A stretch of 49,477 bases of DNA from Deltaproteobacteria bacterium (GTDB lineage: Bacteria; Desulfobacterota; GWC2-55-46; JAJCZF01), in assembly GCA_029262475.1 (NCBI GenBank), contig JAJCZG010000030.1:1-49477 (forward strand), in the 5' to 3' direction. Within the stretch, counting starts at the first letter, position 1, and every line of letters begins with the position of its first letter. The notes under the pieces were generated by a model that was given only the letters and a program-made list of their open reading frames with translations, made no database searches and was not told the DNA's origin. Both the position numbers and the translations under genes were made by a program. Below are positions 248-5,432 of this stretch, one piece after another.

Positions 248-361
248 TTACTTGGCGCCGGAGATGATATAGAGAAAGAGCAGGGCGAAGAGGATGGCAT
301 TCAGGATGGCTCCGCCTATTATTATGTAATCCACCTTCTTTAGTTTTCTTCTTTTATCCAT
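248..361 (-). CDS. Small single-helix membrane protein (37 aa), unknown
   Basis: This short frame encodes a basic N-terminus (MDKRRKLKK) followed by one hydrophobic helix (about residues 12-34), ending SGAK. The layout suggests a membrane peptide with its N-terminus in the cytoplasm. No Shine-Dalgarno sequence precedes the ATG. Instead a strong promoter places the expected transcription start at or within a base of the A of the ATG, which suggests a leaderless mRNA. It diverges from the cytochrome operon, so it could be a small subunit or assembly peptide of that complex, in the manner of the small helices that accompany terminal oxidases, but no family was recognised. It could also be a chance frame in a promoter region; the basic-then-hydrophobic composition and the promoter are what argue for it. 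Confidence 0.45.
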   Translation of the reverse strand: MDKRRKLKKVDYIIIGGAILNAILFALLFLYIISGAK

Positions 362-444: not shown

Positions 445-555
445 ATGAAGATCATAGTCTTTCTTGCCTCACTCTTCGTCTTATGCGGATTTTTTTTATT
501 GCTCGACAAAGGGTTCTTCGCCCTTCAGGGGCTTTCTTTCTTATTTAAGGGGTAA
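445..555 (+). CDS. Small membrane peptide (36 aa) leading the cytochrome operon
   Basis: An ATG at 445 is preceded by AAGGA at 431-435 (nine-base spacer). The 36-residue product is almost wholly hydrophobic: one helix near residues 2-20 (begins MKIIVFLASLF), a short DKG turn, then an amphipathic tail ending FLFKG. It ends 13 bases before the ATG chosen for the CydA-like gene. An overlapping long frame that would extend that gene back to 464 is explained by this peptide. By position it resembles the single-helix peptides that accompany bd and cbb3 oxidases (CydX, CcoQ), though no sequence match is claimed. It could instead be a leader peptide. Confidence 0.5.
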   Translation: MKIIVFLASLFVLCGFFLLLDKGFFALQGLSFLFKG

Positions 556-568
556 TAAAAGACCGTCT

Positions 569-2482
569 ATGAGACTTGCTCCATCAAAAAAGGCCGCCGC
601 ACTATTAGTTACGGTAATAATTACGGCATTAACACTCCTCCTTATCGCCCCGGATAGTAGTACCTATGCCGCTACCGAAAGAGAAGAGACGGAAGCTGCC
701 TTAACTCTTACTACTCCTGGTGAGACGACCGGCCTTTCTGGGATCAATTTAAAAGACGGGTCAAAGAAGGGCGAGATAGATAGAGCGATCCTCCTGGACC
801 GGACCGAAAGGAAGCAGGTAAAGCCCCCGGAGCTAACCGCTAAGGACTACCGGAGCCTCGGCCCGGTCAAAAGACGCACCACAGGCTGGTTCCTCGCTCA
901 GATCCATCTCTGGTTCGCGGCCTTCGTCTTAGCCGTACCGATCTTCGTCGTCATCTCAGAAGCGTTAGGCATGATAACAGGTAACGAACGCTACGACAGG
1001 ATGGCTTACGAATTCCTCCGTATCAGCATGACCGCTTACTCCTTTACGGCGATAAGCGGCATCCTCTTCGCCCTTGCACTATTCTTCTTCTACCCCGGGC
1101 TCATGAAATACATGACAAGGATATTCGAGGACAGCTACGTCTTCTACGTCCTCTTTATCTTCCTGGAGAACGCGGCGCTATATAGCTACTACTACGGGTG
1201 GAAGCGGATGAGGCGCGGCACGAAGAAGAAGCTCCACCTCGCCGTCGGCATCTGGCTAAATATCATGGGTACGCTCATAATGATAACCGCGAATGCGTGG
1301 GCGACCTTCATGATGACGCCGGGCGGCGTTGATATGGCAGGGATATTCCAGGGAGGGGTCTGGGCGGCGGTGCATAACCCGCTCTGGCATCCGATGAACC
1401 TCCACCGCTTTGTGGCGAATATCGCCTACGGCGGCTCCATAGTGGCGGCATACGCGGCCTATATGTTCCTCTCCGCGCAGACGAGGCGGGAGCGCGCCCA
1501 CTACGACTGGATGGGTTATATCGCAAGCTACATCGCCGTCATTGCGCTCCTGCCGCTACCGTTTGCGGGGTACTGGCTTACAGCCGAGATATACGCCTAC
1601 AGCCAGCAGATGGGCATAACCCTCATGGGCGGGCTCTTCGGCTGGATCTTCGTTATACAGGCCGTAATAATCGGCGCTCTCTTCCTCTCTATTAATTACT
1701 ACCTCTGGTGCGCCATGAAGAGAAACCCCGGAGGCGAGCGCTATACCGTCTATATCAAGTACCTGGGTCTTGTTATACTCGCATGTTTTCTCGTATGGTT
1801 TACACCACATACGCTGATACTTACGCAGGCCGAGCTTACGGCCCTAGGCGGGCCGTACCACCCTGTACTCGGCCCGCTCGGGCTCATGCCGGCAAAAAAT
1901 ATCGCCGTAAATATACTTATAATCGGAACGTTTTTAAGCTTTCTTCTATACCGGAGATCCGGACGGAGAGTCCCGGCAGGTACCGGTAGCGCCAATTACC
2001 TCGCCGCCGTACAGCTCGCGGTGATACTCTCCGGTGTGGTAAATATTATTATCGTCGGCGTCTACTACGGCTACTTCACCAACTCCGTATATAAGGTAGC
2101 CTCAAGCGTGCCGCAGGTGATGACGACTCTCGCTGTGATAGTGCTGACCTCGGGGATAGAATACTACCGCTACAAAGGCGTAAAGGCCGGGAGTCGTTCC
2201 CGGTGGGGAAGGGTTCCCGAGAGGAGCCAGTACGCGCTTATCTTGCTTGCGGTATCATTTACATGGCTAATGGGGCTTATGGGCTTTGTCCGTTCTGCGA
2301 TAAGGCAGCACTGGCACGTCTTCTCCGTCGTTCGAGACGCCTCTACCGAGGCCTATACCCCGACGATTTCTCATGCCGCCCAGGTCGTGAGTATCGCTAC
2401 CATTGTATTTCTCTCGTTTATGGTCTTAATATTTTGGCTTAACAGGGGCTGTGGAGAAGGAAACAGCGGGAGGCGCTTATGA
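569..2482 (+). CDS. CydA-like (bd-type) membrane oxidoreductase subunit
   Basis: This 637-residue polytopic membrane protein resembles subunit I of cytochrome bd. It has an N-terminal signal-anchor (about 8-26), a polar stretch to residue 105, then many helices. Matches to CydA are the first-helix histidine in QIHLWF (His113), the glutamate helix FIFLEN (Glu200) and ITANAWATFMMTPGG (about 239-253). By eye, the usual haem b558 histidine position falls on Ala283 in RFVANIAYG, while His274 and His279 lie just before it. The long quinol-binding Q-loop is not evident and no cydB follows. ATG 569 is preferred because it lies just after the upstream peptide and opens a good signal-anchor. Its stop overlaps the next start (ATGA). 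Related CydA homologues with c-type cytochromes and no CydB are annotated in nitrite oxidisers and other bacteria. Electron donor and acceptor are unknown; oxygen reduction is an inference. Confidence 0.75.
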   Translation: MRLAPSKKAAALLVTVIITALTLLLIAPDSSTYAATEREETEAALTLTTPGETTGLSGINLKDGSKKGEIDRAILLDRTERKQVKPPELTAKDYRSLGPVKRRTTGWFLAQIHLWFAAFVLAVPIFVVISEALGMITGNERYDRMAYEFLRISMTAYSFTAISGILFALALFFFYPGLMKYMTRIFEDSYVFYVLFIFLENAALYSYYYGWKRMRRGTKKKLHLAVGIWLNIMGTLIMITANAWATFMMTPGGVDMAGIFQGGVWAAVHNPLWHPMNLHRFVANIAYGGSIVAAYAAYMFLSAQTRRERAHYDWMGYIASYIAVIALLPLPFAGYWLTAEIYAYSQQMGITLMGGLFGWIFVIQAVIIGALFLSINYYLWCAMKRNPGGERYTVYIKYLGLVILACFLVWFTPHTLILTQAELTALGGPYHPVLGPLGLMPAKNIAVNILIIGTFLSFLLYRRSGRRVPAGTGSANYLAAVQLAVILSGVVNIIIVGVYYGYFTNSVYKVASSVPQVMTTLAVIVLTSGIEYYRYKGVKAGSRSRWGRVPERSQYALILLAVSFTWLMGLMGFVRSAIRQHWHVFSVVRDASTEAYTPTISHAAQVVSIATIVFLSFMVLIFWLNRGCGEGNSGRRL

Positions 2483-3051
2483 GCGTATTTCTAAAGACAG
2501 CTCTCTTCTGTGTCATAGTCGTCGCGGCCTTTACGCTATTTTCCGTATACTATATCCCGGACCTAAAGCCCGCTCCACCTCCGATGGAGACCAGGGCCGA
2601 TATTACTACAATGGATTTAGAAGAGATAACGGCCCTCGGGAGATACGTCTACGGCGTTAAGGGATCATGCAGCCGCTGCCACGGCAGTGTCGGCGGAAGG
2701 GCCCCGGAGCTTAAAGAAATTGCTCTCACTGCCGCCGGGCGCATAAAGGAGGATAGCTATAAGGGGAGCGCCATAACTGCCGCCGGGTATATCTACGAAT
2801 CAATGGTAGACCCATCGCTTTACGTCGTCCGGGGCTACGGCGTAAAGGGGACAAGCGACGCCGAGAGCCCGATGCCTGCGGCATCAAACAGGGCAGTTGG
2901 TCTTACAGAGACGGATATGAGGGCGGTGATAGCTTACCTCCAGGAGAACTCCGGGGTAACGCCGACGCCTTTCTTCAAGCTGCCTGAAGGGTACGGGGCG
3001 GATAAGGCCCACGGAAGAGCCGGTAAAGGGGAGGCAGCGTCCGAGAGATGA
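2479..3051 (+). CDS. Membrane-anchored monohaem cytochrome c
   Basis: The 190-residue product has an N-terminal uncleaved helix (about 5-27), a proline-rich linker (PAPPP) and one haem c motif CSRCH (Cys64, Cys67, His68). MPAAS around residue 130 may supply the distal methionine. The last 25 residues are charged and probably disordered. It should face the periplasm and pass electrons to or from the CydA-like protein. Start and stop overlap both neighbours by four bases (ATGA), so translational coupling within one operon is very likely. The family is broad (cytochrome c class I) and the specific partner is inferred from context only. Confidence 0.85.
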   Translation: MSVFLKTALFCVIVVAAFTLFSVYYIPDLKPAPPPMETRADITTMDLEEITALGRYVYGVKGSCSRCHGSVGGRAPELKEIALTAAGRIKEDSYKGSAITAAGYIYESMVDPSLYVVRGYGVKGTSDAESPMPAASNRAVGLTETDMRAVIAYLQENSGVTPTPFFKLPEGYGADKAHGRAGKGEAASER

Positions 3052-3809
3052 AGATACCCGCACTCTTAAAATTCGTGCTTCTTGTCGTTATAGCCTACCT
3101 CGTCTTCAAGGCCCCGGCGCTCCTAATGGGTAAACCCATACCCGCAAGCCTTGCAGGGGTATACCTCTTCTTTACCGTCGTGGTAATTCTACTCGTAATG
3201 ACCTCTACCGATAAGGGGGTAAGCGAGCTTACAGGGCCCATCTACAGGGTATCCTTCGAGCCGGGGCTAAGGCCCATAAGAAACGTAATCGTAGTAGCTT
3301 TGCCGATTATCGCTGTGGCGATTACTTATTTCTCGATTGCTGGCGGCGAGGTGTCGAGTGTTAAGCTTAGGACCGCTCACCCCGCTCCGCCAGAGACGTT
3401 TGCGGCCTACGGTAAGAGGGTTAAGACCGAAAAGCTTACAAACCCATACAGGGCGCTTGAGGAGAGCGACCCGAGGGTATTTGAGAGGGCTGTAAAAGAC
3501 GGAGGTAAAGTATATTTCAAGAACTGTTTTTTTTGCCACGGCGCAAAGCTAGACGGAGCGGGCCACTACGCACGCGCGCTGAAAAACCCCTTGCCCCAAC
3601 CCTTTAAGGGGCAGGACACGATAGCGCAGTTAAGTGAAGCGTACTTATTTTGGCGCATCACTACCGGCGGGCCGGGGCTTCCGGCTGAGAGCGCGCCGTG
3701 GGACTCTTCGATGCCCGCCTGGGAAAGTATCTTAAGTGAAGACGAAATATGGAAGGTAATCTTATTCGTCTACGACTACACCGGCAACAGGCCGAGGAGC
3801 TGGGAGTAG
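3048..3809 (+). CDS. Three-helix membrane protein with C-terminal cytochrome c domain
   Basis: This 253-residue protein has hydrophobic segments at about 5-25, 34-52 and 78-97, then a periplasmic domain with one haem c motif CFFCH (Cys160 to His164) and the conserved HGAKLDGAG that follows in class I cytochromes. SSMPAWESIL near residue 223 probably carries the distal Met ligand. It overlaps the preceding gene by four bases and is followed nine bases later by the next cytochrome. The fusion of three helices to a haem domain suggests a structural subunit that docks the soluble haem domains onto the membrane core. Confidence 0.85.
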   Translation: MKIPALLKFVLLVVIAYLVFKAPALLMGKPIPASLAGVYLFFTVVVILLVMTSTDKGVSELTGPIYRVSFEPGLRPIRNVIVVALPIIAVAITYFSIAGGEVSSVKLRTAHPAPPETFAAYGKRVKTEKLTNPYRALEESDPRVFERAVKDGGKVYFKNCFFCHGAKLDGAGHYARALKNPLPQPFKGQDTIAQLSEAYLFWRITTGGPGLPAESAPWDSSMPAWESILSEDEIWKVILFVYDYTGNRPRSWE

Positions 3810-3818
3810 ACTGCTGAC

Positions 3819-5432
3819 ATGAAACTATACAGAAAAATAATCCTCCTGGCGGCCTTACTTATGGCTTCACTCTCGCTGGCACTCTCCGGTGGGTCAGCCA
3901 CTGCCGCCGGCCCCGAGAGCGGTAAAGCGATATACGTTAAGCGCTGCGCCTGGTGCCACGGCGAGGACGGCGCTGGCGACGGCCCCGCCTCTGAGTACCT
4001 AAATCCCCCGCCGAGGGACTTTACCGAGGTGAGCTACAAGTATAAGAGCACCCCTTCGGAAGAGATGGTCCCAACCGACGAAGACCTCTTAAAGGTCATT
4101 CGTGGCCGCGACTTCGGTAACGGAGAAGGCCACGGGGCGGGGTGGACCGCCTCCATGCCCGGCTTCGGCGATATCGTCTCCGATGATGACGCAAGGAAGC
4201 TCATCGAATATATAAAATACATTTCAGATATTACCGATGAAGAAGTACCCGCCTCCATAAGCCTTGAAGGACGTATCCCAAGCTCGGAAGAGAGCATTCG
4301 GACGGGTAAGGAGCTATTCCTTGCTAAAGACCGCTGCACCGAGTGCCACGGCAAACTCGGTAGAGGGGACGGGCGAAAGAGGCTAAAGGACGACCTCGGG
4401 TACCGCACCTGGCCAAGGAACCTTACTAAGGGATTTAGCTTCAGGGGGGGTAACAAACCGGAAGATATCTATACGCGAGTGACCGTCGGCATTCCCGGCA
4501 CGCAGATGCCGTCTTTCGCCGACCCGGCGAGTAAAAGACGCCTTACCGAAGAAGAAAGGTGGCATGTGGCGAACTATGTCGCCTCCCTTAACAAACCCTA
4601 TAAAAAGCCCGGAGACTTTACGGCGATTCATGCTATTTATCTGGACGGGCCCCTGCCGGGCGGCCCCCTTGACGAGGGCTGGTCAAGAGCCCCGTATACG
4701 AGCCTCCACCTCTTCCCGCAGATAATAATGGAAACCCGCCTCTTTACCCCGTCCCTCGATACGCTCTCGGTAAAGGCCGTCTATAATGAAGACGCACTTA
4801 TGATACTCCTGGAGTGGGACGACAGGACCCTGAGCGATCCGGACGATAAGGTCTCAAGGGAGATAGCCGGGGGCGCTCACTACCCTGACGCTCTGGCAGT
4901 AGAGTTTCCAATGGCGAACCCCTCAACCGGCAAAAGCAGTACCCCTCCATTCTTCGGCGAGGGAGACCTGGAGCACCAGGTAAATATCTGGTACTGGCGC
5001 GGCACCGAAGGGGTAACGGAAGAGAGCGGAGGAGGAGAGGTAAAGCTCTACAACGCCGCCGGAATAACTAAGAGAAAAGAACGGAAACCTGAGATGGCAG
5101 GAGTCACGGCAAGAGGCGTTTACAAAGACGGCACATGGCGAGTAGTAATGAAGCGCCCCTTGAGGACGGATAACCCCGATACGGTTATACAGTTCGACGC
5201 TACTACCACCTTGCCAGTGGCCTTCGCCCTGTGGGACGGGTCTAACCTTGAGAGAGGGTCAAAACACGTACTTACCTCGTGGCATAAGATAAGTTTTAAG
5301 CAGAACTCCGGGTACGGGCGCCTTATATGGCCCGCAGTAGCCGGGGGCTTTATTATTATTTTGGAGCTGGTATGGCTCCGAAGCGGCACTGACGACCGTA
5401 AAACGAATGACCCACTTCACAAAAAACCGTAA
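3819..5432 (+). CDS. Dihaem cytochrome c with ethylbenzene dehydrogenase-like haem-binding domain
   Basis: The 537-residue protein has a signal peptide (cleavage likely near residue 29), two cytochrome c domains (CAWCH at 43-47 and CTECH at 173-177, with MPGFG and MPSFA as candidate distal Met segments), then from about 265 to 505 a beta-rich domain. Features such as LDEGW, ALMILLEWDD and DALAVEF resemble the haem b-binding gamma subunit family of ethylbenzene dehydrogenase and nitrite oxidoreductase. A C-terminal helix (about 508-526) anchors it. It closes the cytochrome operon and ends one base before the convergent kinase stop codon. If the C-terminal domain binds haem b, the protein holds three haems. 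The domain assignment is by pattern only. Confidence 0.8.
   Translation: MKLYRKIILLAALLMASLSLALSGGSATAAGPESGKAIYVKRCAWCHGEDGAGDGPASEYLNPPPRDFTEVSYKYKSTPSEEMVPTDEDLLKVIRGRDFGNGEGHGAGWTASMPGFGDIVSDDDARKLIEYIKYISDITDEEVPASISLEGRIPSSEESIRTGKELFLAKDRCTECHGKLGRGDGRKRLKDDLGYRTWPRNLTKGFSFRGGNKPEDIYTRVTVGIPGTQMPSFADPASKRRLTEEERWHVANYVASLNKPYKKPGDFTAIHAIYLDGPLPGGPLDEGWSRAPYTSLHLFPQIIMETRLFTPSLDTLSVKAVYNEDALMILLEWDDRTLSDPDDKVSREIAGGAHYPDALAVEFPMANPSTGKSSTPPFFGEGDLEHQVNIWYWRGTEGVTEESGGGEVKLYNAAGITKRKERKPEMAGVTARGVYKDGTWRVVMKRPLRTDNPDTVIQFDATTTLPVAFALWDGSNLERGSKHVLTSWHKISFKQNSGYGRLIWPAVAGGFIIILELVWLRSGTDDRKTNDPLHKKP

Follow-up and report, generated by a model that had tools for sequence, protein, structure and literature searches.

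What does a CydA-like protein do in a genome that has no CydB and encodes it together with three cytochromes? Complexes of this type first came to light in nitrite oxidisers and anammox bacteria and represent a known but unproven respiratory membrane complex. Nitrospira and its relatives drive nitrite oxidation worldwide, and the enzyme that delivers their electrons to O2, or returns them to quinone, is still unproven. The window, the whole stretch of 49,477 nucleotides of deltaproteobacterial DNA analysed here, holds a minimal version of the complex: one CydA-like protein and four c haems, in a small genome without nitrite oxidoreductase (NXR). An earlier note on this DNA considered either a cytochrome c-fed oxidase or a quinone/cytochrome c oxidoreductase. 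These two hypotheses are the right ones and match the literature, where both were already proposed for the cluster (PMC3578206, PMC6606698, PMC10839748), but one argument offered in support, a missing b558 histidine, does not hold.

The gene block and its CydA-like subunit

The region contains the following features:

248 to 361, minus strand: s1, divergent 37-aa single-helix ORF MDKRRKLKKVDYIIIGGAILNAILFALLFLYIISGAK, candidate small subunit
445 to 555, plus strand: s3, 36-aa single-helix ORF MKIIVFLASLFVLCGFFLLLDKGFFALQGLSFLFKG ending 13 bp ahead of cydA, a candidate small subunit of CydX type
569 to 2482, plus strand: cydA-like, 637 aa (PF01654, AF2 model with Foldseek, alignments)
2479 to 3051, plus strand: cytA, monohaem cytochrome c with an N-terminal anchor, CxxCH at 2668-2682 (PF00034, conservation, haem counts)
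3048 to 3809, plus strand: cytB, cytochrome c whose N-terminal part has three hydrophobic segments, CxxCH at 3525-3539 (PF13442)
3819 to 5432, plus strand: cytC, signal peptide, CxxCH at 3945-3959 and 4335-4349, C-terminal anchor (PF09459)

The four genes of the block lie on the plus strand in the order and place first described, although cydA begins at 569 and not at 445, which opens a separate conserved 36-aa gene. The proposed four c-type haem motifs are present, with one CxxCH in cytA, one in cytB and two in cytC. The homologues of cytA mostly carry two haems, while cytA of the window has one. CytC is a homologue of alt_NxrC. It has a predicted haem-b domain, whose NXR-gamma-like character the earlier note had recognised: it matches PF09459 (ethylbenzene-dehydrogenase/NXR-gamma domain) with 93 bits and, in the PDB, 6h5l_B (E 2e-39), 7b04_C, "Nitrite oxidoreductase subunit C" (E 1e-5), and 2ivf_C (E 2e-5).

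The assignment of the first gene to bd-type subunit I is confirmed by both profile and fold. PF01654 matches with 7e-19 and 68 bits (cut-off 26), covering profile positions 9-245 of 418 only, and the ten best Foldseek matches of the AlphaFold model (pLDDT 83) are PDB CydA chains. The C-terminal half does not superpose closely on CydA (query TM 0.32-0.42) and cannot be aligned to canonical CydA, so that a counterpart of M393 was not placed. The model predicts 14 long membrane helices after an N-terminal segment.

The alanine read by eye at the b558 histidine position proves to be an alignment slip. HMMER (against 9r2g_A and 5doq_A), MAFFT and profile-profile alignment agree in pairing H279 with E. 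coli H186, and 61/61 sequences keep this histidine. H113 and E200, corresponding to H19 and E107 in E. coli numbering, are likewise retained according to MAFFT and profile-profile alignment. Two canonical haem ligands are lost, E99 being replaced by the invariant Y193 and E445 by S576. The Q-loop, which the earlier note could not recognise, has no alignable counterpart in the profile-profile alignment, and its region is helical in the model. Full restoration of the canonical ligands and the Q-loop, named in advance as counter-evidence, is thus found only in part: as far as alignments can tell, the CydA-like protein keeps H19 and the b558 histidine and is devoid of the quinol loop, E99 and E445.

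The predicted absence of cydB extends to the whole genome, which is 100% complete and has no PF02322 match; the same search was positive in 10/14 controls. A hidden CydB is therefore rejected. A cydB in the operon of relatives, the other counter-evidence named, is absent from the block in the neighbourhoods listed in detail. Similarly, the genome has a single PF01654 match and hence no second CydA-family gene, although other genomes of the class did yield the paralogue type. This rules out a CydA' partner outside the block, and the CydAA' heterodimer proposed for OR-N1/OR-N2 cannot exist in this genome. An NxrA-type alpha subunit is also missing from the genome: the best TIGR03479 match is NarG (1381 bits, over the cut-off) and the other match is weak. 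The idea that the block anchors an NXR was therefore dropped. This genome without second CydA paralogue and without NXR is new here.

The same gene block is present in hundreds of genomes. Gene content and order are kept in nearly all of 80 homologous loci from several phyla, and also in Nitrospira-type genomes, which argues against a chance arrangement. Relatives often carry small membrane proteins and, besides the first, another CydA-like paralogue accompanied by cytochromes of its own. Plasmids are almost devoid of the family, with 1 weak match. In the tree, the window protein groups with other cytABC-linked CydA-like proteins, split from canonical CydA with support of 100/100; its common group with Nitrospira proteins has moderate support (80/97). 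The block is the already described bd-like_3/alt_NxrC_2 cluster and is not unique to the window.

Small membrane proteins and associated putative haem-chemistry genes

Homologues of s3 are found immediately 5' of cydA in 72/72 usable loci (68 loci and 4 with an over-extended cydA ORF), and also in Nitrospira loci. The ORF is under purifying selection, with pN/pS of 0.30/0.65 in frame and at least 1 in other frames, and has no Pfam or NCBIfam match. The s1 family occurs in 75 loci including Nitrospira. In many loci, phmmer finds mostly weak matches to s1 at the corresponding position upstream (best E 0.003), the family profile score is 13.7 bits, and there is no significant Pfam or NCBIfam match. 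A role as small subunit is less certain for s1 than for s3. That these unannotated ORFs accompany the bd-like block is new here, and an incomplete literature search returned no paper linking small subunits to bd-like oxidases. Judged by its coding sequences, the locus combines a CydA-fold subunit, a periplasmic relay made up of four c haems plus a predicted b haem, and a conserved 36-aa membrane protein.

Two genes co-occur with the block and are often syntenic with it: one for a NirJ/AhbD-like radical-SAM enzyme (rSAM), the other for a Usp protein, each with a PCP_red domain at the C-terminus. In Nitrospirota, rSAM-PCP_red is found in 76/85 genomes with the CydA-like gene and 1/113 without (76/9/1/112), counted at phylum level since the class of G060 comprises 6 genomes only. 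In the class of the window genome, 40 genomes have both genes, 9 the CydA-like gene only, 2 rSAM only and 8 neither. Across both sets, rSAM without the CydA-like gene thus occurs in 3/119 rSAM-positive genomes; these co-occurrence statistics ignore shared ancestry and use a score cut chosen after seeing the scores. The rSAM gene is syntenic with the block in 25/35 loci. Synteny is seen in groups as far apart as groundwater deltaproteobacterial MAGs, Alphaproteobacteria, Gallionella and Mariprofundus. The rSAM and Usp genes of the window genome are sited away from the block, whereas in many relatives they lie beside it.

The families scoring best with the linked rSAM are NirJ2 (314 bits) and AhbD (302 bits); it differs from both in scoring below the cut-off (500) and in its C-terminal PCP_red domain. 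It is not the ordinary haem b synthase, as a separate true AhbD (511 bits) is encoded among the hem genes of the window genome. Service to haem d1 was also considered: PF02239 matches only a propeller of 326-332 aa, which is too short for cd1 nitrite reductase, with other haem d1 users not exhaustively covered. The incomplete literature search found no paper linking PCP_red or the linked rSAM to the bd-like enzyme.

Co-occurrence and synteny suggest a dedicated haem-tailoring or maturation system for the block, and its inheritance together with such a gene set is new here. The radical-SAM/Usp/PCP_red genes might instead serve haem supply in general or some other enzyme and be mere passengers of the same lineages, to which we assign a probability somewhat short of even. 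Inflation of the counts by shared ancestry, the 9 Nitrospirota and 9 own-class genomes with a CydA-like gene but no detected rSAM, and the lack of adjacency to the block in Nitrospira fit passenger genes; synteny in such distant groups, the separate AhbD and the near absence of rSAM without the CydA-like gene do not. A broader proposal is less likely than not. In nitrifiers, anammox bacteria and relatives, the bd-like complexes could be multi-subunit, with previously unseen small membrane subunits s1, s2 and s3 and a dedicated modified haem, made or inserted by the PCP_red-bearing NirJ/AhbD-like rSAM with Usp-PCP_red and, in Proteobacteria, a protoporphyrinogen-oxidase homologue, by a route distinct from canonical haem d formation. 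The candidate maturation system tracks the enzyme across phyla, and the identity of the haem would go far towards settling the enzyme's function.

Function of the complex

We favour, at evenly balanced confidence, a cytochrome c-linked O2 reductase. This reading draws on the CydA fold, the kept H19, E107 and H186, the absence of quinol loop and CydB, and the cytochrome relay; the conserved block, the tree placement, the constant presence of s3, the rSAM co-occurrence and synteny and the OR-N literature add to it. The electron donor would be periplasmic, most likely cytochrome c in its reduced form, and dock on CytC; the c haems of CytC, CytB and CytA would pass electrons to the membrane haems of the CydA-like subunit, where cytoplasmic protons would be used in reducing O2 to water. 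CydX-like structural roles might fall to s3 and s1, and the PCP_red-bearing radical-SAM and Usp proteins might supply or insert the haem cofactor. That no purified member of the family was found in the literature counts against an O2 reductase, as does the lack of the CydA' partner expected by the CydAA' model in its published outline.

A strong rival, although we consider it unlikely on balance, is reverse electron transport, in which electrons of periplasmic cytochrome c are pushed uphill to the quinone pool, like a reversed alternative complex III, and proton motive force is spent to gain reductant for CO2 fixation. Carriers of the block include Gallionella, Mariprofundus and Nitrospirota, lineages known as lithotrophs using high-potential donors. 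For Nitrospina and Nitrospira, published work has put forward reverse transport by this cluster (PMC3578206, PMC6606698). The canonical O2-reducing site has its ligands E99 and E445 replaced, and the cluster is reported from anaerobic anammox bacteria (PMC3578206); both points speak for reverse transport and against an O2 reductase. The host also encodes two aa3-type oxidases, and hence the complex need not be its oxidase. However, neither the canonical Q-loop nor any other quinone site could be recognised; descent from CydA and the conservation of H19/H186 suit an oxidase, and the host is not established as an autotroph.

It is improbable that the complex reduces another small molecule such as NO, or protects oxygen-sensitive enzymes, outside main respiration. 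The host does encode narGHJI and a NOR-like COX1 protein, and L-NosZ adjoins the block in 7/80 loci, but the L-NosZ link is limited to these few. The block could also be a canonical cytochrome bd quinol oxidase that has decayed or been misread, with which the CydA fold and the retained H19, E107 and H186 would agree. This is largely refuted and highly improbable given the genome-wide lack of PF02322 against its detection in most controls, the CydA match ending about halfway, the cytochromes in place of CydB in relatives and the 14 helices.

Comparison with known systems

The closest known system is the cluster of bd-like_3, two c-type cytochromes and alt_NxrC_2 in Nitrospira moscoviensis (PMC6606698), which is conserved in Nitrospina and Kuenenia (PMC3578206). 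The window shares with the Nitrospira, Nitrospina and anammox clusters a cydA-like gene followed by genes for two c-type cytochromes and for an NxrC-like protein that has a membrane helix and two CxxCH motifs. The window protein, which lacks the Q-loop, also has the 14 transmembrane helices published for the bd-like protein of the cluster (PMC3578206). Its identity to the N. moscoviensis protein is ~48%; the window genome differs in having one CydA paralogue, no NXR and a cytA with one haem instead of two.

OR-N enzymes are putative cytochrome c-oxidising O2 reductases (PMC10839748, PMC12342949), and a CydAA' heterodimer was proposed for OR-N1/OR-N2 (Murali 2021, as related in PMC10839748 and PMC12342949). 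So far as these accounts describe the OR-N/OR-C families, the absence of a quinol site and of CydB and the putative cytochrome c donor are shared. The block may well be the single-paralogue form of such a bd-like (OR-N/OR-C-type) oxidoreductase complex, a proposal we regard as balanced for and against.

With canonical cytochrome bd, the complex has in common the subunit I fold, H19, E107 and H186; it differs in the absence of CydB and the Q-loop, the loss of E99/E445 and the added cytochromes c. As in CydAB-X, the operon also encodes a single-helix protein of ~37 aa, comparable to CydX, and the candidate small subunits are concrete targets for any purification or cryo-EM.

Gene block and CydA-like subunit

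The four genes proposed in the earlier note are present in the order cydA-like, cytA, cytB and cytC, and two small ORFs precede them:

248-361, minus strand (divergent): s1, 37-aa ORF
445-555, plus strand: s3, 36-aa ORF
569-2482, plus strand: cydA-like, with ATG start at 569
2479-3051, plus strand: cytA, c-type cytochrome (Pfam)
3048-3809, plus strand: cytB, c-type cytochrome (Pfam)
3819-5432, plus strand: cytC, two cytochrome c domains and an ethylbenzene-dehydrogenase-type haem-b domain (Pfam)

Starting instead at a TTG at 464 would lengthen this ORF but bring it into overlap with another gene. The junctions cydA-like/cytA and cytA/cytB each overlap by 4 bp, and 9 bp separate cytB from cytC. 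The four c-type haem motifs previously counted are confirmed as one, one and two CxxCH in cytA, cytB and cytC. In the PDB, cytC resembles the diheme cytochrome 6h5l_B from Kuenenia (E 2e-39) and the NXR subunit 7b04_C, which together with its haem-b domain bears out the proposed likeness to nitrite oxidoreductase gamma. In some lineages cytB and cytC are fused into a single protein of ~750 aa (L062:11325-13571, L199:2628-4877, L200:1021-3318), supporting a physical association of the two.

Pfam Cyt_bd_oxida_I covers only the N-terminal half of the cydA-like protein (68 bits, cut-off 26.2), and an NCBIfam search returned no model for the protein. Its b558 histidine had been read by eye as Ala. 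This reading is wrong: H279 (H186 in E. coli numbering; 'MNLHRFVAN') pairs with the b558 His of M. smegmatis 9r2g and Geobacillus 5doq (HMMER), of E. coli CydA (MAFFT) and of nine canonical CydAs (profile-profile alignment), and is invariant among 61 diverse sequences. H19 is likewise kept as H113, invariant except in one paralogue, and E107 is retained as E200. The positions that do differ are two others, E99, replaced by an invariant Tyr193, and E445, replaced by Ser576. M393 has no assignable counterpart, since no alignment could be made over the C-terminal half. An AlphaFold model (pLDDT 83, pTM 0.83) predicts 14 long helices after an N-terminal segment, and CydA chains fill the top ten places among its PDB matches.

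Small membrane proteins and linked haem-chemistry genes

Genomes of 84,980 species were scanned with the cydA-like protein, giving at least 572 homologues. The best 80 (53-66% identity) belong to groundwater 'Deltaproteobacteria', marine Alpha- and Gammaproteobacteria, Gallionella, Mariprofundus and Nitrospirota, with the order cydA-cytA-cytB-cytC in essentially all loci having enough sequence.

Position 445, where the earlier note began the block, is the start of s3, which ends 13 bp before cydA. By profile search, all 72 loci in which 300 bp or more precede cydA have an s3 homologue directly before that gene (in four, the mechanically called cydA ORF had been drawn too long and ran across s3), as do seven Nitrospirota loci, of which three are Nitrospira-type; the profile matched no other position within the 80 loci. 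Its pN/pS is 0.30/0.65 in its own frame and at least 1 in both others, variation is greatest at third codon positions, and Asp and Gly are invariant in the motif 'LD......QGLS'. Counterparts of s1 occur in about 75 loci, the assignment of the window copy being less certain since its individual matches are weak. A further family, s2 ('WAGPALF...FFWWF'), occurs in 62 loci and was not found in the window, and d2 (two helices, ~70 aa) follows cytC or adjoins the radical-SAM gene described below in 58 loci, including the host's own (L151). The window's s3 and s1 and examples of s2 and d2 have no significant match in Pfam or NCBIfam. Gene position and analogy with CydX suggest that these proteins, new for this kind of complex, may be its subunits.

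Of the 35 loci with full flanks, 25 encode a radical SAM/SPASM protein (rSAM), a Usp protein or both at a distance of up to ~10 kb from the block. Each of these proteins terminates in PCP_red, a domain that also forms the C-terminus of protochlorophyllide reductase subunit BchB. In 12 of these loci there is also a homologue of protoporphyrinogen oxidase (one example scores 258 bits against a cut-off of 98). The rSAM scores best against NirJ2 and AhbD, both below cut-off. In the window's class, rSAM and cydA share a contig in 23 genomes (median distance 5.1 kb).

Co-occurrence of the CydA-like protein and rSAM (genomes; p-values overstate the case, as they ignore shared ancestry and the rSAM cut of E < 1e-80 was picked after two score groups were seen)
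Window's class: 40 both, 9 CydA only, 2 rSAM only, 8 neither; p = 3e-4
198 Nitrospirota: 76 both, 9 CydA only, 1 rSAM only, 112 neither; p = 3e-43

Some 'CydA only' genomes (G131, G035, G050) reflect contig ends or damaged genes. PCP_red is itself rare elsewhere, occurring in one of 14 control genomes; thus E. coli and Bacillus, which have canonical CydAB, are without it. The host's own rSAM gene is broken across the ends of two contigs, C121 (L150:3-2284) and C62 (L151:8774-9435), adjoining the Usp-PCP_red gene on one side and d2 on the other; a separate AhbD lies in the hem cluster (511 bits, above cut-off). This newly recognized linkage suggests that the module produces, alters or inserts a cofactor, most simply haem, for the complex.

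Host genome and possible reactions

The host genome (2.4 Mb, scored 100% complete), of which the window forms contig C30, contains no other CydA-family gene, and the absence of cydB noted for the window extends to the whole genome. Hence, the complex cannot pair two CydA paralogues as a heterodimer here. No NxrA-type molybdoenzyme was found in the genome either, so the complex is not tied to nitrite oxidation in this organism. The genome encodes two aa3-type cytochrome oxidases, a COX1 protein that we read as NOR-like, and narGHJI (NarG 1381 bits, above cut-off). A multihaem cytochrome run (L151:341-5789; 4, 11, 4 and 6 CxxCH motifs) possibly serves extracellular electron transfer. Window positions 10685-32395 hold a dense run of apparent central-metabolism genes, assigned by eye (fumarate reductase/succinate dehydrogenase, 2-oxoacid:ferredoxin oxidoreductase, succinyl-CoA synthetase, Hdr-like, fumarase, malate dehydrogenase) and compatible with a reductive TCA cycle.

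The block encodes a relay along which electrons would enter from the periplasm through cytC, cytB and cytA and then reach the CydA-like haems. We give cytochrome c:O2 reduction about an even chance and rate it no higher because E99 and E445 are lost, the cluster is reported in anaerobic anammox bacteria (PMC3578206) and the host has other oxidases. Reverse electron transport to quinone is less likely but a strong rival, and another acceptor or a protective role is improbable. The small membrane proteins and co-inherited haem-chemistry genes raise the interest of the system, as they make the questions of cofactor and reaction directly testable.

Relation to known bd-like clusters

In 30 of the 80 loci, another block of four paralogous genes, with a CydA' of ~720 aa, closely precedes this one. 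Nitrospira-type genomes carry the same block with a second CydA paralogue upstream, an arrangement corresponding to the bd-like_3/alt_NxrC_2 cluster, whose duplication has been described (PMC6606698). In one such genome (L197:11146-17082), the gene directly after a bd-like gene encodes an exported molybdoenzyme of the type-II DMSO-reductase family, 1179 aa long and probably NxrA (280 bits to TIGR03479, below cut-off). Seven of the 80 loci (L079, L041, L053, L056, L066, L069, L081) have a nitrous-oxide reductase of the clade III lactonase type, L-NosZ (L079:14147-15982; NF052460, 770 bits, cut-off 700), near the block.

In the tree, the window protein groups with deltaproteobacterial block-1 proteins, within a wider group that includes the Nitrospira cytABC-linked proteins (support 80/97), and canonical CydA is separated at 100/100. 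The block belongs to a known but uncharacterised kind, of which it is a single-paralogue variant. The predicted fold of its CydA-like subunit agrees with the Nitrospina homologue, which is reported to have 14 helices, with three helices where the Q-loop would be, and to lack quinol-binding residues (PMC3578206).
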